Shown here in pieces: positions 14,047 through 36,707 of a stretch of DNA of 37,397 nucleotides. Positions within the stretch are counted from its first letter, which is position 1, and the number at the start of each line of letters is the position of its first letter. The DNA lies in NCBI GenBank assembly GCA_003225365.1, contig QHZN01000084.1:1-37397 (forward strand), given 5' to 3'. Below the pieces are notes generated by a model, which did no database searches, was not told the DNA's origin, and worked only from the letters and a program-made list of their open reading frames with translations. The position numbers were made by a program, and so were the translations under genes. This DNA comes from Acidobacteriota bacterium. GTDB taxonomy: Bacteria > Acidobacteriota > Terriglobia > UBA7540.

Positions 14047-14266
14047 CAATTCAATATGCGGTGAGTTGTCTTGTGCGGGGCTTGCCGAGGCAGTTTCAGG
14101 GGCCTTGAAGTCGAGCCCGCTCTCGTTTAATATCTGTGCAGAGGGGAAGTTTCCGCCCTGATCATTCGCAGATGAGTGCCGAAAAGCCCTGCCTCGGTTC
14201 GCGTGAGGAGCGAGGGCAGAGTCCAATGGTTTCTTCCTCGTGGTGGTCTGTGGGAGGCCGAGTTTG

Positions 14267-14887
14267 ATGATGAAAAGAGAGTCCGGATATTCTATGGTCG
14301 AGCTGCTCGTGGTTATCCTCATTCTTGGGATTGTTGTCGCCTTTGCGATACCTTCGGCCTCGACCGCCATCCGTGATTACAGGCTTCACTCCGACGCTAA
14401 TGTGGTGGCTGGCCAATTGAACGTAGCTCGAATGAGAGCCGCCTCCCAATACGCTCCCTACCGTGTGGTGGTTAACATCGCCGCGGGAACATACTGGATG
14501 GAAAAGCTTTGCGGTTTGACGACCAGCACCGCCGATCCATCTTGCACTACTTCGTACATGCCTCGCTCGGTCCCCGAAGCCCAAATCGAGGGAGGGACGC
14601 AATACGTGGGGACCAATGACGCATATTCAAGTTGTCGGCCGTCCGGGGTGACCGCATATCCCGGCTCAATTCAGGCGGATCTCAGCCCTTGCCCGGACCC
14701 TCTCTACATTTACTTTAATACGAGGGGATCTCCAGTGGACAGCACGGGCAATCCCCTGGGAAACGGCGGCGCCGTTCTTTATATCAAAAACACGAACGCC
14801 ATGGCGGACGCGGTCACGGTCTCCGTCGGCGGAAACGTTACCCGATATCAGTGGAGCAAGGCAAGTTCGACGTGGAAGGCCCGGTAG
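14267..14887 (+). CDS. GspH/FimT-type minor pilin
   Basis: A 206-residue prepilin. The leader MMKRESG is followed by the cleavage context G^YSMVELLVV with Glu at +5, then a hydrophobic helix (LLVVILILGIVVAFAIPSAS) and the typical FimT/GspH continuation AIRDYRLHSDANVVAGQLN and ARMRAASQ. It would be cleaved by PilD-type prepilin peptidase and placed in the tip or priming complex of a type IV pilus. The start is the ATG at 14267, with GGGAGG nine bases upstream; the ATG three bases later is equally usable and a GTG at 14240 would give an overlong leader. Unlike the next three genes its leader carries no repeat. It is first in a four-gene pilin operon. The C-terminal globular part contains several cysteines. 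Confidence 0.88.
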   Translation: MMKRESGYSMVELLVVILILGIVVAFAIPSASTAIRDYRLHSDANVVAGQLNVARMRAASQYAPYRVVVNIAAGTYWMEKLCGLTTSTADPSCTTSYMPRSVPEAQIEGGTQYVGTNDAYSSCRPSGVTAYPGSIQADLSPCPDPLYIYFNTRGSPVDSTGNPLGNGGAVLYIKNTNAMADAVTVSVGGNVTRYQWSKASSTWKAR

Positions 14888-14965
14888 GGCATGCGACGCC
14901 GTCGGCGCGGCCCGGGTGGATGGCGAGGCCCTGCACCATACGATACAGCGCAAAGGAGGGACCCC

Positions 14966-15586
14966 ATGAGGAAATTGATCCACGTCGAAGACACTGAGCG
15001 AAGCCGAAGTGAGGCTCATGGCGTGAGCCTGATCGAGACCATGATCGCGGTATTCATTGCCCTCATCGGTGTTTTCAGCCTCGGACAGGTGGTCTTCCTT
15101 TCGATGGTTCAGGACAAGAACCAGGGGTCGGAGGTAACGCGCGCCACCATCTACGCCCAGGATAAGATGGAAAAGCTCCTGTCGCTCGACTTCACGAGTT
15201 GCACTCTGGCCGCGGCCTCTCAGCCTGCCACGTGTAACACCACCAACATCAGCGCCAGCGGTTGGACGCAGGGGTTGCTCCAGGGCGGAGCGACGGGCCC
15301 GCCGCTCGTAGCCAGTTGTCCGACAACGGGAGCCTCCATCGGGTACATGGATTACCTGGACCCCAACGGGATTCAAGTGCCTGGAGCCACGCCAGCGACG
15401 TCTTGCTCCGCGATCGCGTCGAATCCGGTGGCTTACATCCGAATGTGGCAAGTAACGGACTTGGCCTCGACCGGGGGGCCCGCCATCAAGAAGATTGCCG
15501 TGTCGGTCTATGCTCAAAGCGCGGTCAGCGCTCCCGGAGGCAAACCCATCGTTCAAGTGACCAGCTATTTATCTAACCCGAATTAG
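14966..15586 (+). CDS. pilV: PilV-type minor pilin with repeat-bearing leader
   Basis: A 206-residue prepilin with the PilV signature G^VSLIETMIAVFIALIGVFSL, Glu at +5, followed by QDKNQGSEVTRATIYAQDKM, where PilV proteins have A-x-x-LAQxxME. The strong ribosome site AAGGAGG precedes the ATG at 14966. The leader is 19 residues and includes EDTERSRSEAHG, encoded by a half-palindrome (14992-15013) of the dispersed repeat family, immediately before the cleavage glycine. The rest is a globular domain with several cysteines. It follows the fimT-like gene by 78 bases and precedes pilW by 15. Family assignment is good; whether the altered leader is still processed is unknown. Confidence 0.85.
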   Translation: MRKLIHVEDTERSRSEAHGVSLIETMIAVFIALIGVFSLGQVVFLSMVQDKNQGSEVTRATIYAQDKMEKLLSLDFTSCTLAAASQPATCNTTNISASGWTQGLLQGGATGPPLVASCPTTGASIGYMDYLDPNGIQVPGATPATSCSAIASNPVAYIRMWQVTDLASTGGPAIKKIAVSVYAQSAVSAPGGKPIVQVTSYLSNPN

Positions 15587-15601
15587 CGGAGGGGAGCCGA
15601 C

Positions 15602-16816
15602 ATGCGAGCAGCTACAACTCAACCCGGCGCGTCAGGTCGAGGTAGGAATACGGTCGTTCCCGCGAAAGCGGGAAACCAGGGCGGCAAGCAGTGGATCTCC
15701 GCCCCTCGGCAGGCTCAGGGCAGGCTTTCCGCGGGGACGACAAGAACCGCCCTTCGACTTCGCTTAGGGTCTTCGACATTCGGAGCGGGGTATTCTCTCC
15801 TGGAGCTGTTGATCAGCGTGGCGATCATCCTCCTCCTGATGTCGGCGGTCTTTCCATTCATTGCCCAATCGCAGAAAACCTTTCAGGGCAATCAGGTGAC
15901 GGCGGAAGCGAACCAGAGCGCCCGCGCGGCGCTGGAGGTCATTTCCCAGGAAATCGGACAAGCGGGTTACAACTCAAACTTCAACAACAATCGCACCTCT
16001 TCCGCCAACGTGACTGCTTCGGCGTCCGCTCAATGCATCACCCTGAATAACATTAACAAGATTAATGCGGGCGACTGGCTGTACGTGGATACGGGACCAA
16101 ACGAGGAGCTTGTCCAGGTTCTCTCCACCTCTGCGATTCCGAGCAGTCCGTGCTCCGCTTCAAATAACGTTCAGGCCGTCTTCTCCTTTAATCACACGGG
16201 CGCCACCACCGCTTTCCCGCTCATCAGCTACAAGATGCCCTACGGGGTAGGCATTATCCAAGGGTCAGGGACCTCGACCGACCAGCGGCTGGAATTTTTC
16301 GGCGACCTCAATCAGGACGGCGTGATTCGATACGTCGTTTACAGCTTGAACCCCGTCAGTCCCGCCTCCACGGTGACCATCAACGGCACGGTGTATACGC
16401 TCTACAACCTGTACCGCTCGATAACGCCGGTGACGTACGCGAACCTTCCTCCTTCCGGAACGATAACGCCTTCCGTGAACAACCCCGCGTCGGTATTGGT
16501 CTCGAACGTTCTTTACAACATCGCGAATGCCAGCGGGCCGACCGGTCAGCCGATTTTCGCCTATCCCAATGAAGTCACGATTGGCGTGGTGCCGAACGTC
16601 ATCACGGTGGTCGGAACCATCGTGATCACGATCAGCGTGGATGTCGTACCGTTGAATCTCGCGACCGGCCAAGTGCAGTGGGCCACCATGGCGACCCAGA
16701 TTCGTCCGATAAACCTGGCGGCCGCCATTGCGGTGAACTATGCTGGAGGGGCCATCTACCTCCCGCCTTTGCCCAAGACCCTGCCCATGACCAATCCGAC
16801 GAATTACTATCAATAA
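15602..16816 (+). CDS. pilW: PilW-type minor pilin with a 63-residue repeat-derived leader
   Basis: A 404-residue protein. The prepilin helix G^YSLLELLISVAIILLL, with Glu at +5, begins only after 63 residues, far beyond the usual 6-25. The only in-frame ATG, GTG or TTG ahead of the cleavage site is the ATG at 15602, behind GGAGGGG. The long leader is built of repeats: an inverted element from about 15653 to 15742 (gtcgttcccgcg paired with cgcggggacgac), a GC palindrome nested in it, and a third copy (CCCTTCGACTTCGCTTAGGG) at about 15750. After the helix comes NQVTAEANQSARAALEVISQ and then EIGQAGYN, as in PilW. The remainder is beta-rich and Asn/Thr/Ser-rich. It is third in the pilin operon. 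Confidence 0.85.
   Translation: MRAATTQPGASGRGRNTVVPAKAGNQGGKQWISAPRQAQGRLSAGTTRTALRLRLGSSTFGAGYSLLELLISVAIILLLMSAVFPFIAQSQKTFQGNQVTAEANQSARAALEVISQEIGQAGYNSNFNNNRTSSANVTASASAQCITLNNINKINAGDWLYVDTGPNEELVQVLSTSAIPSSPCSASNNVQAVFSFNHTGATTAFPLISYKMPYGVGIIQGSGTSTDQRLEFFGDLNQDGVIRYVVYSLNPVSPASTVTINGTVYTLYNLYRSITPVTYANLPPSGTITPSVNNPASVLVSNVLYNIANASGPTGQPIFAYPNEVTIGVVPNVITVVGTIVITISVDVVPLNLATGQVQWATMATQIRPINLAAAIAVNYAGGAIYLPPLPKTLPMTNPTNYYQ
15653..15779. repeat. nested palindromic repeats within the pilW leader
   Basis: The arms at about 15653-15664 and 15731-15742 form an inverted repeat with one wobble. A small hairpin ttcccgc-gaaa-gcgggaa lies at 15657-15674. A second element (cctcggcaggctcagggcaggc) sits between the arms, and a copy of CCCTTCGACTTCGCTTAGGG follows. 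The whole block is translated in frame. Confidence 0.8.
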
Positions 16817-16828
16817 GGAGCGGCCGAT

Positions 16829-18604
16829 ATGACCAACCGAAAAGCAGACCGAACGAAACGGCAACCCTTCGACCCTTCGACTGCGCTCAGGGCCTTCGGC
16901 TGCGCTCAGGGCCTTGGGCCTGGCAGAAGGGAGGAGGGAGTGGCTCTGATTCTGGTCTTGCTCGCCATGTTGGTGATGAGCGCATTGGCGGCGGCGATTG
17001 TTTATACGGCTCGAGCGGAAACCTTCGCCAGCAACAACTATAAACTGGAGACAGAAGCGGACTACCTGGCCAAGGCAGGAATCCAGCGTGCCGTCAACTG
17101 GTTCCGCAGCAACCACTACCAGACAGTTCAGCAGGCGCAGGCCAGCACTTATTATGCTGTGACTTCCACGGGCACGCCCTACAACCTTTACACTTCCAAC
17201 AACTCGCCCGTGAACTGCGCCTCGGGCTGTTCTTCATCGAATTCGGCCGTGCAGTTTATTGGATACGGGTCGGGGTCCACAAATTTCCCGAGTATCTCCA
17301 ACACGGCAAGCCCTTCGACCGCCGTGACCTCGGCGTTCGCGTCGGATTTGGTGAATGTTCCGGTGACGGCTTCAAATGGAAACAATCTGGGATCTTTTTC
17401 GATTCGGGCGACGTTGATCAATTATCAGACGGTGGGTTTGGGCACGGACCCTCCCTACACGATAGTTCCAGTGGAAACCTGGTCGGTGACGTCTCTCGGC
17501 ACCTACACGGGAGGACAAGGATTAACCTTGGCCACGGCCGAGGAGTCAGCAATCGTTCAGCCGGTATTCATACCAACATGGGGGAACGCCCTTTATGGCT
17601 TTTGCGGGGTCACCATGACCGGCAGTGCGGGGACCTGCACCGATGCCTTCAATTCAGCTTTCGGCGCTTACGGCGGCGGCAGCAACGCGACCGCCGCGGG
17701 CGCGTGCGATTCGACGACGGCGACTAACGTCATCGCCGCCGGCGCCAACGTTGGCGCCAACGGCGGCGTGACACTCGGCTCGAACGTCACGGTGGCCGGG
17801 AACGTCGTCATCGGCAGCGGCTCGACCTCGGGTTGTACCGCCAACGGGTACAGCGGGAGCACCACCTCGGTTAGAGGCCAAGTGATTAACGGGCCGCATA
17901 AATCAGCGCCTCCGGCGCCTTCGTTTCGCTCGGGTTTCCCCGGCACCTCGCCGAGCTACCCGCTGGGGGTGGGCGACGTGCTGACGTTGCCGGTTAACGG
18001 GACTTGGTCTAACACCCCTTTCCCCGAAACCGGTGGTCTCCCAAGTCCGCCAACCAACTCCCCCACCTGCATGAATAACGACGGCACATGCAACGGTACG
18101 TCGGCGCATCCTTACGAAATCAGCAGCATTTCCATGACCGGCGGCGGCAATGGCCCCAATTCGCCGATTCTTAAATTTGTGGGCAGCAACAATCCAGCAG
18201 CCCCGATTTATTACGACATCGACAGCTTGTCGCAGAACCAGGGTCAGATCAACGTTTCGGGCTACGTCGTTCTGAACATTCAATCCGGGCTCAGCATCGG
18301 GGGTCTGGGAGTCTCAAACGGCATCAGCAACGACATTCCTCCCGAGTACCTGGAGATGAACTACGCAGGAACCTCGGCGGTGAGCATTAACGGCAACGGA
18401 GCGGTTTCAGCCGTGATCAACGCGCCGAATGCAAGTGTAGACTTGGGGGGCGGCGGGAGCGGCGGGTACTTCGTCGGTGCAATCCAGGCCAATAACGTCA
18501 GCGTCGTGGGGGGCTACCCTGTTCATTATGACCTCCAACTCTCGCGCATGGGGGGATTGTTGGGCGTTATCACCACCACCGCTTTCTCGCGGCAAAAAAT
18601 GTAG
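16829..18604 (+). CDS. PilX-like pilus assembly protein with repeat-bearing leader
   Basis: A 591-residue protein whose N-terminus matches PilX proteins: REEG^VALILVLLAMLVMSAL, a hydrophobic helix, then AEADYLAKAG-like text (ETEADYLAKAGIQRAVNWF). It lacks Glu at +5, as PilX members often do. The leader is 37 residues and contains two tandem copies of the dispersed palindrome (16866-16925), read as PSTALRAFGCAQGLGPG. The start ATG at 16829 has AAGGAG nine bases upstream, 12 bases after the pilW stop. The rest is low-complexity Gly/Asn/Ser/Thr-rich with regular GSNVTVAGNVVIG-like strands, compatible with a beta-solenoid, and ends without a second membrane segment. It closes the pilin operon; no PilY1 adhesin gene follows. 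Confidence 0.75.
   Translation: MTNRKADRTKRQPFDPSTALRAFGCAQGLGPGRREEGVALILVLLAMLVMSALAAAIVYTARAETFASNNYKLETEADYLAKAGIQRAVNWFRSNHYQTVQQAQASTYYAVTSTGTPYNLYTSNNSPVNCASGCSSSNSAVQFIGYGSGSTNFPSISNTASPSTAVTSAFASDLVNVPVTASNGNNLGSFSIRATLINYQTVGLGTDPPYTIVPVETWSVTSLGTYTGGQGLTLATAEESAIVQPVFIPTWGNALYGFCGVTMTGSAGTCTDAFNSAFGAYGGGSNATAAGACDSTTATNVIAAGANVGANGGVTLGSNVTVAGNVVIGSGSTSGCTANGYSGSTTSVRGQVINGPHKSAPPAPSFRSGFPGTSPSYPLGVGDVLTLPVNGTWSNTPFPETGGLPSPPTNSPTCMNNDGTCNGTSAHPYEISSISMTGGGNGPNSPILKFVGSNNPAAPIYYDIDSLSQNQGQINVSGYVVLNIQSGLSIGGLGVSNGISNDIPPEYLEMNYAGTSAVSINGNGAVSAVINAPNASVDLGGGGSGGYFVGAIQANNVSVVGGYPVHYDLQLSRMGGLLGVITTTAFSRQKM
16866..16925. repeat. tandem palindromic repeats within the pilX-like leader
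   Basis: The unit CCTTCGACTGCGCTCAGGG is followed at once by CCTTCGGCTGCGCTCAGGG and a partial third start. Both are copies of the dispersed palindrome seen in other genes here. They lie between the start codon and the prepilin cleavage region and keep the reading frame. Confidence 0.85.
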
Positions 18605-25533: not shown

Positions 25534-26082
25534 ATGAAATTCGTCGAAGCCTTTCGCCACTCGAAGCGCGGCGAGTCGAAAGGGCTGAACGAAGAGGGTC
25601 GAGAACTCGCCCGGCGCGCCCGTCCGCTCTTGGCGCCGCGCTACGACCTGTGCGTGTCCAGTCCCAAGGAGCGCGCCCGCGAGACCATGGAGGTTTTTGG
25701 CTTCCCCAGCTACGATGTGGACGAGGCCTTCACGGCCGTCAATCCCTGGGAGCCCTTCGACGAGGCGGTCACAAAGCTGGCCAAGGAAAAAGGCATCACC
25801 CCGCTCGCCGCCTGCTGGTTCGTTCCCGAGGCCCTCAAATACCTGCGCTTCCAAGGAGAAACATTGCTCGGGGCTATCCATCGCATCGCGCGCAAGCTTC
25901 CGGAAGGCGGCCGGGCCCTGGTCGTCACGCACGGCGGCATTCTCGAAGCGGCGGCGCTCTTGGGCGGTCCGCGCTATGAACTCGATGAGCTGGGCGGCGA
26001 AATCAGTTTTGCCGAAGGCGTCGTGTTCAAGTTCGACGGAGAGAAACTGACCGGCGTGGATGTCAAAAGGCTTGTGGAATAA
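25534..26082 (+). CDS. histidine phosphatase superfamily protein (SixA-like)
   Basis: A 182-residue protein of the phosphoglycerate-mutase/SixA superfamily. The N-terminal nucleophile motif is VEAFRHSKRGES, in place of the usual RHG; then comes LNEEGRELARRARPLL, with CVSSPKERARETME (second Arg) and VVTHGGILEA (second His). The catalytic His and Arg residues are present. It probably removes phosphate from a small molecule or phosphohistidine; the exact target is unknown. It starts three bases after the hydrolase stop, so the pair is one operon. Its TAA stop is immediately followed by the left heptad array (26083), with no space for a terminator. Confidence 0.8.
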   Translation: MKFVEAFRHSKRGESKGLNEEGRELARRARPLLAPRYDLCVSSPKERARETMEVFGFPSYDVDEAFTAVNPWEPFDEAVTKLAKEKGITPLAACWFVPEALKYLRFQGETLLGAIHRIARKLPEGGRALVVTHGGILEAAALLGGPRYELDELGGEISFAEGVVFKFDGEKLTGVDVKRLVE

Positions 26083-26131
26083 GGATGAAGTGTGAAGGAT
26101 GAAGGGTGAAGGATGAAGTACGAAGGATGAA
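26083..26131. repeat. left arm of heptad locus 3
   Basis: Seven consecutive 7-nt units: ggatgaa, gtgtgaa, ggatgaa, gggtgaa, ggatgaa, gtacgaa, ggatgaa. The array begins at the first base after the phosphatase stop. Its theme is the reverse complement of the right arm at 26533-26620, with the S23 gene between. Confidence 0.9.
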
Positions 26132-26141
26132 ATGGCGCTGT

Positions 26142-26537
26142 TTATTCCTCGCTCCTGCGCCCTTCGGGTTGCCTCTTGATCTTGACGATAATTGCAGTGA
26201 TGATAGCGACGAGCTCGTCTCTTTCCTGGATGATGGAATTCAGCCGCTCATTGGAAAGAATTCTTGATTCCGCGAGAAGACGTAACCAATACAAGCTTTC
26301 ACGCGCCTCCTTCTGAGCGATGCCGTACTTATGGATGAAGTCCGCTCGACTCTCGCCTGACTGCGCCTCCTCGATGTTTGCGCCAATTGAGGTAGCGCTC
26401 TTGAGGTATTGCCGGCCGAGCGCCCACCCGGCCCCATCCTTTCGTTTCACCAACGCCTGGTAGAGTTTTATCGCTCTCAGGGCATAGGCGAACGACCTTT
26501 GCCTTATGTCTTGGGCATTTCCCCCTTCAAACTTCAT
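26142..26537 (-). CDS. four-helix-bundle protein (S23/bIVP family), first copy
   Basis: A 131-residue all-helical protein of the S23 family, named after ORFs in 23S rRNA intervening sequences and related to Avd of diversity-generating retroelements. The core is SFAYALRAIKLYQALVKRK, then LGRQYLKSATSIGANIEEAQ with the family N-(I/V)-x-E pattern, SRADFIHKYGIAQKEARESL and YWLRLLAESRIL. The function of stand-alone members is unknown; basic pentamers that bind nucleic acid are known for relatives. The ATG at 26537 lies inside the first unit of the right heptad array (ggATGAA on its strand), and the preceding GAAGG of the array would serve as the ribosome site. The gene is thus bounded by inverted arrays and is not in rRNA. 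Confidence 0.85.
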   Translation of the reverse strand: MKFEGGNAQDIRQRSFAYALRAIKLYQALVKRKDGAGWALGRQYLKSATSIGANIEEAQSGESRADFIHKYGIAQKEARESLYWLRLLAESRILSNERLNSIIQERDELVAIITAIIVKIKRQPEGRRSEE

Positions 26538-26620
26538 CCTTCAGCCTTCATACTTTAACCTTCACCCTTCATCCTTATCATTTCATACTTTAACCTTCAC
26601 CCTTCATCCTTATCATTTCG
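26533..26620. repeat. right arm of heptad locus 3
   Basis: Twelve 7-nt units: ttcatcc, ttcagcc, then the block ttcatac, tttaacc, ttcaccc, ttcatcc, ttatcat twice. The two 35-nt blocks (26547-26581 and 26582-26616) are identical, showing recent tandem duplication by whole units. The array includes the S23 start codon and ends ten bases from the secA stop. Confidence 0.92.
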
Positions 26621-26629
26621 TCGGATGGA

Positions 26630-29845
<3,216 letters not shown>

Positions 29846-30468: not shown

Positions 30469-30852
30469 ATGAAGACAGCGGGCGCAATACTAGGTCTGGT
30501 GCTGGCGCTGGCGGCCGGCTACTTCGTTTTTAAGTATGAGTTCAGTCAAGGTCCCGCGGGCACGGCCTCTCCCAAAGTAGCGATCGACGTCACCGGCGTG
30601 AAAAGCGATTTGCTGACGATCGGCCAGGCCGAGCGCGCCTACATGGTGAGCAAGGGCAGCTACGGCTCGCTCGACCAGCTCCAGCAGGACGGCGACCTAA
30701 CTTTCTCCGGCGGCGACCGCCGCGGCTACCACTACGACGCCACGGCCGATGACGGGACGCACTTCAAAATCACCGCCACACCCTCCGACCCCGCTAAACA
30801 GGGATGGCCGACGCTGAGCATTGACGAGACCATGCAGATCCAACAGCAATGA
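30469..30852 (+). CDS. small membrane-anchored pilin-like protein
   Basis: A 127-residue protein: one N-terminal helix (MKTAGAILGLVLALAAGYFVFKY), a short linker, then LLTIGQAERAYMVSKGSYGS, LDQLQQDGDL and a compact C-terminal domain ending IDETMQIQQQ. The segment TIGQAERAYMVSKGSYGSL resembles the first globular part of type IV pilins and pseudopilins, which read as T-x-x-A-x-x-x-Y-x-x-x-x-G-x-(Y/F). There is no prepilin cleavage motif, so it would remain anchored. The ATG at 30469 follows a GGAGGGG site. The TGA stop overlaps the first base of the heptad array at 30852. Function unknown; it may be a lipid-exposed pilus-related or scaffold protein. Confidence 0.65.
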   Translation: MKTAGAILGLVLALAAGYFVFKYEFSQGPAGTASPKVAIDVTGVKSDLLTIGQAERAYMVSKGSYGSLDQLQQDGDLTFSGGDRRGYHYDATADDGTHFKITATPSDPAKQGWPTLSIDETMQIQQQ

Positions 30853-31049
30853 GAAGTCAGAATTCAGAAGCTAGAAGTCAGAAGGTCGCAGTGAACGGTG
30901 GGAAGCCAAGCAATCAAGCGCTGGAAGCCACAAGCAAGGGGCAGATGCAAGGACGCAGAGCTGAGCGGTGCGGCATGCTAATCTTCCTGACAGATGAACA
31001 TGAGGTTTCCTTCCCTTCTGGCTCCTGACTTCTGGCTTCTGACTTCTCG
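30852..31049. repeat. inverted 7-nt arrays without an S23 gene (heptad locus 4)
   Basis: Left array: agaagtc, agaattc, agaagct, agaagtc, agaaggt (30852-30886), starting with the A of the preceding TGA stop. Right array: cttctgg, ctcctga, cttctgg, cttctga, cttctcg (31015-31049), complementary in theme. The 128 bases between them have no convincing gene but contain diverged gaagccaag/gaagccaca units. It looks like a heptad locus with no gene, or one that has lost it. Confidence 0.85.
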
Positions 31050-33143: not shown

Positions 33144-33428
33144 GTGATTGTCAGCTATCGGGACAAGCGGACCGGAGACTTCGCCGCAGGGAAAAGGGTC
33201 AAAGCGTTCTCTGGGTTTGAACGCTCCGCGCGACTGAAGCTTGACCGACTGGAGGCGGCAACGTCACTGAAAGATCTTGCCGTGTTGCCCGGCAATCGTT
33301 TTGAGGCCCTCGTCGGCGACCGCAAAGGCCAATTCAGCATCCGTATTAACGATCAATGGCGGATTTGTTTCGAATGGCCGGACCGATCGCCGGGACCATC
33401 AAACGTGGAGATCGTTGATTACCATTAG
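33144..33428 (+). CDS. higB: HigB/RelE-type toxin
   Basis: A 94-residue toxin of the HigB branch of the RelE/ParE superfamily. The C-terminal half is typical: LKDLAVLPGNRFEALVGDRK, then GQFSIRINDQWRICFEW and VEIVDYH at the end, as in plasmid-maintenance HigB (L-x-x-P-x-x-R-x-x-x-L-x-G, Y/F-S-I-R-(I/V)-N-x-Q-W-R-I-x-F). These toxins cleave mRNA on the ribosome. The start is a GTG at 33144 without a ribosome site, close to the predicted transcript start, so translation may be leaderless. The order toxin first, antitoxin second is that of hig operons. The antitoxin starts ten bases after its stop. Confidence 0.88.
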   Translation: MIVSYRDKRTGDFAAGKRVKAFSGFERSARLKLDRLEAATSLKDLAVLPGNRFEALVGDRKGQFSIRINDQWRICFEWPDRSPGPSNVEIVDYH

Positions 33429-33438
33429 GGGGACCGTC

Positions 33439-33741
33439 ATGAGACTTACTGCAATCCATCCCGGTGAACACTTGGCCACGGAACTGGAAGCACTCGATAT
33501 GAGCGCGGCAGAACTGGCTCGAAAGGTCGGTGTGCCCACCAATCGCATCACGCAAATTTTGAATGGGAGGCGCGGCATTACAGGCGACACCGCTTTGCGC
33601 CTCGCTCATTTCTTTGGCACAAGCGCGCGGTTTTGGCTCAATCTACAGAGCCTCTATGATCTGAGAATCGCCGAGGAGAGAGCCGGGAAATCTATCCAAG
33701 CACTTCCCAGACTAAAAAGGCAGGAGCCTCTGCAAGTATAA
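33439..33741 (+). CDS. higA: HigA-type antitoxin, XRE-family DNA-binding protein
   Basis: A 100-residue protein: AIHPGEHLATELEALDMSAA, then ELARKVGVPTNRITQILNGR, RGITGDTALRLAHFFGTSARFWLNLQSLYDL. The helix-turn-helix and the F-W-(L/M)-N-L-Q end are diagnostic of HigA. It neutralises HigB and represses the operon through the palindrome upstream. A strong AGGGGGA site precedes the ATG at 33439, stronger than that of the toxin, which fits the antitoxin being made in excess. The pair is bracketed by direct repeats of the upstream gene's 3' end (33044-33080, 33774-33810). Confidence 0.92.
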   Translation: MRLTAIHPGEHLATELEALDMSAAELARKVGVPTNRITQILNGRRGITGDTALRLAHFFGTSARFWLNLQSLYDLRIAEERAGKSIQALPRLKRQEPLQV

Positions 33742-35021: not shown

Positions 35022-36209
35022 ATGAACAAGCTGACTATCCGTGACGCGGAGCCGGCGGGCCGGCGGCTCTTCCTCCGCGTGGACTTCAACGTCCCGCTCG
35101 ACTCGAAAGGAGCGATCAGCGACGACACGCGCATCCAGGCCTCGCTCCCCACAATTCGTTACGGCATCGAGCACGGCGCCAAACTGATTCTCGCCTCGCA
35201 CCTCGGCCGCCCCAAGGGCCAGCCGGTAGGCTCCATGACCCTCCGTCCGGCGGCGGAACGGCTGGCGGAGCTCGTCCGTAGCCCCGTCGCCTTTGCGAAC
35301 GACTGCGTGGGGCCGGAAGTCGAAGCGCAGGCGCGGGGGCTTGCGGCGGGCGGCGTTCTGCTACTCGAAAACCTTCGCTTTCATCCTGAGGAAGAGAAAA
35401 ATGAGGAGGGATTCTCGCGCCGGCTCGCCGCGCTCGCCGATTTGTACGTCAATGACGCGTTCGGCTCCGCGCACCGCGCGCACGCTTCGACCGTGGGCAT
35501 CACCAAGTACCTTGCGCCGGCCTTGGCAGGGTTCCTGATGGAGCGCGAAATCAATTACCTCTCGAAAGCCGTGGAGAACCCGGCGCGGCCTTACACGGCC
35601 ATCGTGGGAGGCGCAAAAGTTTCCGACAAGATGGAATTGCTCCAGAACCTGATGAAATTCGCCGACAACGTGCTGATCGGCGGCGCGATGGCGTACACGT
35701 TCTTGAAGGCGAGAGGGGTCGAGGTGGGAAAGTCCAGGGTTGAAGACGACAAGCTCGAGCTCGCGCGCAACATATTGAGCTTTGGCGAACGCCGCAGCAT
35801 CCGTATCCGGCTGCCCGAGGACCACGTCGTGACCGAAAAGCTCGAGGCGAGCGCGCACGGTGAAATCTCGGCCGGCGGCATTCCCGCCGGTCGGCTGGGG
35901 GCGGACATCGGCCCGGCCACGCGCGCCCAATACGCCGCGGTCATCGCAGATTCGAAGACCATCGTCTGGAACGGGCCCCTGGGGGTTTTTGAAATCCCGC
36001 AGTTTGCCGAAGGCACGCTCGCCGTGGCGCGCGCCGTGGCCGCCTCCTCCGCTGTTTCGATTGTTGGTGGAGGCGATTCCGCAGCGGCCGTCCATTTGGC
36101 GGGGGTTGGAGAAAAAATCACGCACGTCTCGACCGGCGGCGGCGCCACGCTCGAATTCCTGTCGGGGCGGAAACTGCCCGGAGTCGAAGCCCTTACGGAC
36201 AGGGAGTAG
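35022..36209 (+). CDS. pgk: phosphoglycerate kinase
   Basis: A 395-residue glycolytic kinase that transfers phosphate from 1,3-bisphosphoglycerate to ADP. Motifs: FLRVDFNVPLD, RIQASLPTIRYGIEHGAKLI, SHLGRPKG, ENLRFHPEEEKN, DLYVNDAFGSAHRAHAS, AIVGGAKVSDKMELLQNLM, and the C-terminal nucleotide site VWNGPLGVFEIPQFAEGT with GGGDSAAAVH and VSTGGGATLEFLSG. Length is typical. The ribosome site is weak. It starts 40 bases after gapA. The last codons (DRE and TAG, 36201-36209) lie inside the left heptad array of the S23 cassette, so the normal 3' end has been replaced by repeat units with little change to the protein. Confidence 0.97.
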   Translation: MNKLTIRDAEPAGRRLFLRVDFNVPLDSKGAISDDTRIQASLPTIRYGIEHGAKLILASHLGRPKGQPVGSMTLRPAAERLAELVRSPVAFANDCVGPEVEAQARGLAAGGVLLLENLRFHPEEEKNEEGFSRRLAALADLYVNDAFGSAHRAHASTVGITKYLAPALAGFLMEREINYLSKAVENPARPYTAIVGGAKVSDKMELLQNLMKFADNVLIGGAMAYTFLKARGVEVGKSRVEDDKLELARNILSFGERRSIRIRLPEDHVVTEKLEASAHGEISAGGIPAGRLGADIGPATRAQYAAVIADSKTIVWNGPLGVFEIPQFAEGTLAVARAVAASSAVSIVGGGDSAAAVHLAGVGEKITHVSTGGGATLEFLSGRKLPGVEALTDRE

Positions 36210-36229
36210 GGAGTCGGGAATGGCGAGTC
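36202..36229. repeat. left arm of heptad locus 5
   Basis: Units gggagta, gggagtc, gggaatg, gcgagtc. The array contains both the pgk stop (TAG 36207-36209) and the S23 start (ATG 36220-36222), and its GGGAG units would serve as the S23 ribosome site. The theme is complementary to the right arm at 36662-36689. Confidence 0.88.
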
Positions 36230-36645
36230 GCGGAGAAACCGTGGAGAGGGAGGCACATGCCCTTACACACTCAGGAAGTGCGATCCGGTCTTACCGCGAT
36301 TTGCGCGTTTGGCAGAAGGCAATGGAACTGGCCGAGCGCTGCTATCGTGCAACTCAATCCTTCCCCAAAGAAGAGCTCTACGGCGCAGTTACACAAATTC
36401 GGCGGGCGGCGGCTTCAGTTCCCGCTAACATCGCCGAGGGAAACGGTCGCGAGAATCGTGGCGAATACATTCAATTTCTTCGAATTGCCCAGGGGTCGTT
36501 GAAAGAGCTCGAGACGCACGTCCTGCTTTCCCAGAGGGTTGGCTTGGCCACTGGACCAGCCGCAGAGCCGATCCTTGCCGACTGCGAGCTGGTCGGGAAG
36601 ATGCTCCGAGCCCTCATACGGTCTCTACAGGAAAAGGGGAGATAG
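36220..36645 (+). CDS. four-helix-bundle protein (S23/bIVP family), second copy
   Basis: A 141-residue member with the textbook core: SYRDLRVWQKAMELAERCYR, then FPKEELYGAVTQIRRAAASV, PANIAEGNGRENRGEYIQFL and RIAQGSLKELETHVLLSQRV. The first 22 residues (MASRGETVEREAHALTHSGS) are array-derived or non-conserved; no other in-frame start precedes the core. The family is linked to 23S rRNA intervening sequences and to Avd of diversity-generating retroelements; the role of lone copies is unknown. It sits between pgk and tpiA on the operon strand, so it should be co-transcribed with glycolytic genes. It is only distantly similar to the copy at 26142-26537, so the two are not a recent duplication. Confidence 0.92.
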   Translation: MASRGETVEREAHALTHSGSAIRSYRDLRVWQKAMELAERCYRATQSFPKEELYGAVTQIRRAAASVPANIAEGNGRENRGEYIQFLRIAQGSLKELETHVLLSQRVGLATGPAAEPILADCELVGKMLRALIRSLQEKGR

Positions 36646-36661: not shown

Positions 36662-36689
36662 GACTCCCTACTCCCCACTCCCTATCTCC
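36662..36689. repeat. right arm of heptad locus 5
   Basis: Units gactccc, tactccc, cactccc, tatctcc, the reverse-complement theme of the left arm. In addition ctatctccc (36682-36690) pairs perfectly with gggagatag at the S23 stop (36637-36645). The array ends 18 bases before the tpiA start. Confidence 0.88.
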
Positions 36690-36707
36690 CGTTTTCGAGT
36701 TTTTCCG

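Follow-up and report, generated by a model that had tools for sequence, protein, structure and literature searches.

How does a small gene come to lie between two opposite-facing arrays of one heptad, with its start codon inside one of them, and what gives rise to the arrays? The question is raised by positions 26081-26619, minus strand, of the window, the 37,397-nucleotide stretch of DNA analysed here, which is one contig of the 5.16 Mb draft genome of an Acidobacteriota bacterium. The locus, about 540 bp in size, consists of an S23 gene (26142..26537, minus strand), encoding a four helix bundle protein of 131 aa, between two period-7 arrays. In profile searches the gene scored above the curated cut-offs of TIGR02436 (E=5.9e-25, 87.6 bits, cut-off 24) and PF05635 (E=3.6e-20, 72.6 bits, cut-off 33.8), which was the sole match in the search that gave it, and there was no match to DivGenRetAVD. 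In the sense of S23, the 5' arm (26524..26619, minus strand) is built of GAAGGAT/GAAGGGT heptads, for which TRF reports 12.6 copies at period 7 and, in addition, a higher-order repeat of 35 bp (5 units) in 2.7 copies. The 3' arm (26081..26131, plus strand) carries the reverse complement of this theme in 7.3 copies at period 7, with the 14-mer AAGGATGAAGTGTG at 89% matches (TRF). Smith-Waterman alignment of arm with arm scores 64; the 99th percentile between different loci of the same genome is 26.8. The sole in-frame ATG (CAT on the plus strand, 26535-26537) lies inside a GGATGAA unit. An S23 gene with inverted heptad arrays, a GGATGAA/GGGTGAA theme on both arms in opposite orientation and a start codon within an array unit had all been proposed in a preliminary description of this DNA, and all three hold.

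To the left of the element is an ORF convergent with S23 (25534..26082, plus strand), which from its sequence we take to be a SixA-like phosphohistidine phosphatase; its TAA stop codon (26080-26082) overlaps the first unit of the array. To the right, secA (26630..29845, minus strand; a 14-residue SecA C-terminal metal-binding motif is present) is co-directional with S23 and ends just short of the 5' arm. The element is located between these two genes, and an Rfam search found no rRNA genes within the window.

A second S23 gene (36220..36645, plus strand; PF05635 E=4.7e-37) is found between pgk and tpiA, again with its ATG inside its array. Its 5' arm (36201..36232, plus strand) has the theme AGGGAGT, with one array TAG doubling as the pgk stop codon, and its 3' arm (36663..36690, minus strand) has ACTCCCT, both arms being defined by TRF and by sequence. 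The protein also matches bAvd below the cut-off, and scores 22 bits for DivGenRetAVD (cut-off 80). The two loci do differ in theme (GAAGGAT/GAAGGGT versus AGGGAGT), as had been noticed, and local generation of heptads had been deduced from this difference. That deduction fails, because the two S23 proteins are only 23% identical and are of different lineages. Elsewhere in the window there are, by eye, a cluster of type IV pilin-like and pilus assembly ORFs (14240-18604) and two neighbouring ORFs resembling a HigBA-type toxin-antitoxin pair (33144-33741).

Matching arms across phyla

The genome to which the window belongs has 17-19 S23 matches, and nearly all of the intact ones have inverted period-7 arms with one theme each; among the genomes examined there are up to about 20 S23 copies per genome. 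A scan of GTDB genomes yielded a named set of 80 S23 loci, representing many phyla and including one archaeon, which, combined with loci of the same genome and its relatives, gave 144 distinct loci for comparison. At each, the upstream arm was aligned with the reverse complement of the downstream arm. Median arm scores were 36 within and 18 between loci of the genome itself, where 15 of 16 loci exceeded the 99th percentile, and 37 and 17, respectively, in the named set. Over all 144 loci the median was 38.5 within loci, 16 between loci and 17 for 2205 control pairs, and a score of at least 28 was reached by 116 loci as against 0.5% of control pairs. The prediction that arms within a locus resemble each other more than arms of different loci was thus strongly borne out.

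Self-similarity of the S23 flanks peaks at lags of 7, 14 and 21 bases. In a heptad census covering 0.79 of the 5.16 Mb of the genome, 33 inverted array pairs were found at period 7 but no more than one at any of periods 5, 6, 8, 9, 10 and 11, which excludes a chance origin of the period-7 pairs. The locus at 26081-26619 exemplifies an arrangement that is general, being found in many bacterial phyla.

The S23 arms in the flanks of L102 (3001-3357) and L108 (3001-3318) have a unit of 8, not 7 (CAGTAGGG and GAGTAAGG); both occupy one site, which Mesorhizobium and Brucella share, so that the period varies inside one S23 lineage. The sample from genome G040 (L255-L264, L266) contains 8 inverted pairs at period 9 next to 20 at period 7, as well as very long heptad arrays of over 300 bp. 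S23 genes occur on 30 of 72,556 plasmids, mostly cyanobacterial, and in none of 50,697 phage records, and carriage by phages or plasmids was rejected on these counts.

Heptad theme and S23 lineage

When pairs of loci at different sites were compared, the themes could be aligned in 6%, 5%, 9%, 26% and 71% of pairs with S23 identities of <35, 35-45, 45-55, 55-65 and >=65%, respectively. The association holds between sites of the one genome (0/400 permutations), where themes are shared by L005 and L011 (AGAAG..), L006 and L008 (AGGTG..), and L012 and L013 (AGG.T.A); L014, with 65-66% S23 identity and no theme match, is an exception. It holds equally between Acidobacteriota and other phyla (0/400 permutations), for example between L003 (GGGAGT) and an S23 of Phormidium (GGGAGTC). 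The heptad theme tracks the S23 protein lineage, not the site or the host. Since it does so across sites, genomes and phyla, gene and arrays travel together, and the earlier idea that each theme is generated at its site is not upheld.

The themes of 117 loci, rotated into a common frame, read A(69%) G(90%) G/T N A/G N C/T. The resulting grammar, [C/T]AG[G/T]N[A/G]N, has an alignment score of 225, compared with 151 +/- 3 for position-shuffled heptads. The preliminary description was right to argue against copies of one fixed transposon end. Fixed ends were rejected because the lineages have only this grammar in common, and the conserved terminal inverted repeats of classical IS elements and MITEs are not seen, the ends varying by S23 lineage.

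The protein encoded at 26142-26537 has a predicted fold (pLDDT 93) that matches the four-helix bundles 2RLD (E=1.1e-6, TM 0.80) and 2GSC (TM 0.76). These are the closest solved structures to S23 and contain five chains each, so that the protein probably belongs to the family of pentameric four-helix bundles; Avd of diversity-generating retroelements is a weaker structural neighbour. Two methods, mutual information and sliding-window partial correlation, link residues in the turn between helices 2 and 3 (52-66, numbered on the L003 fragment) and in a stretch of helix 4 (99-107) to theme beyond overall identity. The effects are modest, with a partial r of 0.15 and a mutual-information Z of 5.2 where the null maximum is 5.05; one residue-theme pair is stronger (Z 8.5). 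With phylogeny partly controlled they are suggestive only.

Insertion sites and hairpins without S23

In G001, a genome of the same genus, the SixA-like gene and secA adjoin with no insert, and the site is likewise empty in G017. In Mesorhizobium the nuoC-nuoD junction is either empty (about 30 bp) or filled by an S23 element of lineage F1 (TGAATGG) or F2 (GTGAGTA), while Bosea and one Rhizobiaceae genome have a third lineage (GGCAGTC) there. On a nuoD tree of 42 species these states require at least 17 changes, the minimum possible being 3, and this is hardly below the 19.0 obtained with shuffled labels; the count is approximate because 4 of the 42 species were filled but not typed by the script, and were scored as a state of their own. 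F2 genes (>=82% identity) appear restricted to this junction. At least part of the presence and absence at nuoC-nuoD probably reflects allelic exchange by homologous recombination plus loss, and much of it may. Comparison of empty and filled nuoC-nuoD alleles revealed no clear target duplication and no exact junction, the sequences there being too diverged. The empty alleles at both sites lack arrays: S23 gene and arrays are one insertion unit, present or absent at a given site.

Near-identical S23 copies at different sites were not found in the genome, the best cross-site match being about 83% over 82 bp, which indicates that transposition is rare or old. A stretch of 380 bp and a piece of S23 occur twice, at about 95% identity, in L015/L019 (contig C54) and L009/L018 (contig C57), with unlike sequence between; one of the S23 copies is truncated by a contig end.

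Inverted heptad pairs also occur without S23. At a threshold slightly looser than that of the 33-pair census, 26 short-gap pairs of this kind were found in the same 0.79 Mb. Their median gap is 19 bp, the purine arm comes first in 23 of 26, and many adjoin stop codons. Their themes score 42.7 against the resident S23 arms, compared with 31.0 +/- 2.3 and 25.0 +/- 1.6 against equal-sized sets from relatives and from other phyla, respectively. Similarly, pairs without S23 in G040 match the S23 arms of G040 (62.8) better than those of the window's genome (29.4), scores of this type not being comparable across genomes because arm lengths differ. With only seven arm sets the window genome's pairs score 32.3 +/- 3.7 against their own arms, no better than against those of G040 (29.6). 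The S23-less hairpins carry the themes of resident S23 genes. One inverted pair in the window (30845..31047, gap 130 bp) has the AGAAGTC theme of the resident S23 genes L005 and L011, and is best explained as a non-autonomous derivative. At 1615-1762 the window also contains mixed heptad arrays (TTGTCCT / ACGGACA / ACTTTCG) with the pyrimidine-rich arm first, opposite to the usual polarity.

Explanations and known systems

An S23 gene and its heptad blocks look like a small selfish insertion unit that has so far gone unrecognised. We suggest, with a probability of roughly two in three, that 26081-26619 represents a small selfish element of wide distribution, in which the S23 pentamer recognises the heptads at the element's own ends. 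The pentamer would read the heptads of its own lineage by a common [C/T]AG core and lineage-specific letters, in RNA or in single-stranded form with the arms clasping the gene into a long stem, and recognition would mark the element's own ends for transfer. To our knowledge S23 has no catalytic domain or residue set and no assigned activity, and although structures of four helix bundle proteins have been solved since 2006 we know of no function for them. Because a known catalytic domain is lacking, cutting and joining (or copying) would probably be carried out by enzymes of the host or of other elements. The hairpins without S23 would be non-autonomous derivatives, spread in trans. On a broader proposal, that S23 proteins are a phylum-spanning class of repeat readers and that gene plus arrays form a minimal mobile element spreading gene-less hairpins too, our judgement is evenly divided. 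Each S23 lineage would then read a putative heptad of its own, [C/T]AG plus four lineage-specific letters.

The strongest rival, which we nevertheless consider rather unlikely, is a non-mobile module for RNA processing or regulation, in which the stem formed by the arms is cut by RNase III or serves as a terminator or stabiliser, and S23 binds and controls its own mRNA. RNA folding of the window's S23 transcript predicts a long arm-arm stem enclosing the ORF (z=-4.65). Position fits as well, in that 110 of 138 S23 genes (80%) follow a gene of the same direction, at whose stop codon the array begins (at a median distance of 0 bp, and between -15 and +25 in 70 of 86). The same gene is also found in the intervening sequence (IVS) of Coxiella burnetii 23S rRNA, an element of 428-444 nt with a 28-bp terminal stem that is cut by RNase III and has been called selfish (PMC4990558). 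The module, however, leaves unexplained both the theme-matched hairpins elsewhere and the frequent presence or absence at one junction, and a stem requires no common [C/T]AG grammar. It is not exclusive of the selfish element that we prefer, with which it is compatible.

It is improbable that a Y1 (HUH/RAYT) transposase or a reverse transcriptase moves elements and hairpins in trans, with S23 as cargo or accessory. S23 and Y1 counts do correlate over 41 relatives (rho 0.57; 0.43 as a partial correlation for genome size), and S23 is structurally close to Avd, the partner of a reverse transcriptase. Yet four genomes have S23 and lack Y1, and 11 genomes with at least 5 S23 genes had no detected reverse transcriptase, these drafts being incomplete. 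The whole genome of the window has one reverse transcriptase, on contig C250. Mobilisation by a linked Y1 transposase was rejected, none of 10 Y1 loci having its Y1 gene between paired heptad arrays, as was dependence on a reverse transcriptase, S23 and reverse transcriptase counts being uncorrelated in relatives.

More doubtful still is the origin favoured in the preliminary description, in which heptads are produced and made alike separately at every site, by slippage together with inversion or templated repair. The likeness of arms within loci is as it would predict, and the duplicated 35 bp of one arm agree with slippage or equalisation. At one fixed Mesorhizobium site arms are slightly more similar within a locus than between species (44.5 versus 40.2, p=0.02); a second such site shows a within-locus excess at p=0.02-0.07, and a third shows none. 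Against it, likeness of theme goes with that of S23 at different sites and in different phyla, a single theme is retained at a site across species while its units vary, and the empty alleles have no array. Beyond the theme, unit order is essentially unshared between the arms (mean z 0.36), so neither arm is an inverted copy of its partner; this speaks against one arm having arisen from the other by inversion or by templated copying, and an exact palindrome upheld by inversion was rejected by shuffling unit order. As the main cause local generation is largely refuted, and slippage or local equalisation contributes no more than a minor, secondary part. That arrays pre-exist as hot spots into which S23 genes insert is scarcely credible, for although many arrays lack S23, the theme depends on S23 lineage and the empty alleles at both sites examined have no arrays, which refutes the idea there.

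If mobility of the selfish element is confirmed, it would represent a class of about 0.5 kb with a single protein unlike an enzyme. The putative reading of heptads by S23, with specificity mapped to a short protein turn, is a testable claim, and if S23 is a sequence-specific repeat binder, natural S23/heptad pairs would offer hundreds of ready specificity variants. The repeat-reader proposal, if true, would account together for the S23 family and for bacterial intergenic heptads, among which the STRR of cyanobacteria also belong. Such heptads have been described piecemeal and without a maker, and the present data join them to S23. In the parts of the published accounts consulted, GGGAATC in Xanthomonas and GGGGA(C/T)T in Nostoc are intergenic heptads for which the authors report no general association with mobile elements, Xanthomonas having 70-75 convergent inverted pairs near stop codons (PMC4692102), and TAACTGA heptads are found in Beggiatoaceae (PMC4679880); those parts draw no link to S23. 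The convergent pairs of Xanthomonas are probably the S23-less form of the class described here. We found no S23-heptad link in open-access text, and an earlier description elsewhere is possible. The view that the unit is categorically new is based on this limited check and on two features that it lacks, a place in rRNA and a Y1 transposase; on a stricter view it could be called an S23-bearing IVS of a new, intergenic kind.

Avd binds nucleic acid. It is a related pentameric four-helix bundle, but the S23 element has no reverse transcriptase, template or variable repeat, and S23 falls below the Avd family cut-offs. The S23-bearing IVS is similar in its small size (428-444 nt versus about 540 bp), in the S23 ORF inside it and in complementary ends that, in the predicted fold, form a long stem around that ORF. 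Whereas an IVS is situated in rRNA helices and excised by RNase III, the heptad elements are found between protein genes (the 23S motifs searched for were absent from all 144 S23 loci), and they differ in having heptad arrays as ends, a protein-linked theme and S23-less derivatives. REPIN/RAYT (TnpA-REP) systems likewise combine a protein gene flanked by palindromic repeats with many dispersed hairpins, and here too the dispersed, S23-less hairpins are of the same type as those flanking the gene. Unlike RAYT, S23 is a pentameric four-helix bundle without a Y1 domain, the ends are tandem 7-mers and many themes coexist within one genome. By these analogies the S23 element seems most like REPIN/RAYT in its logic and most like the S23-bearing IVS in its anatomy.
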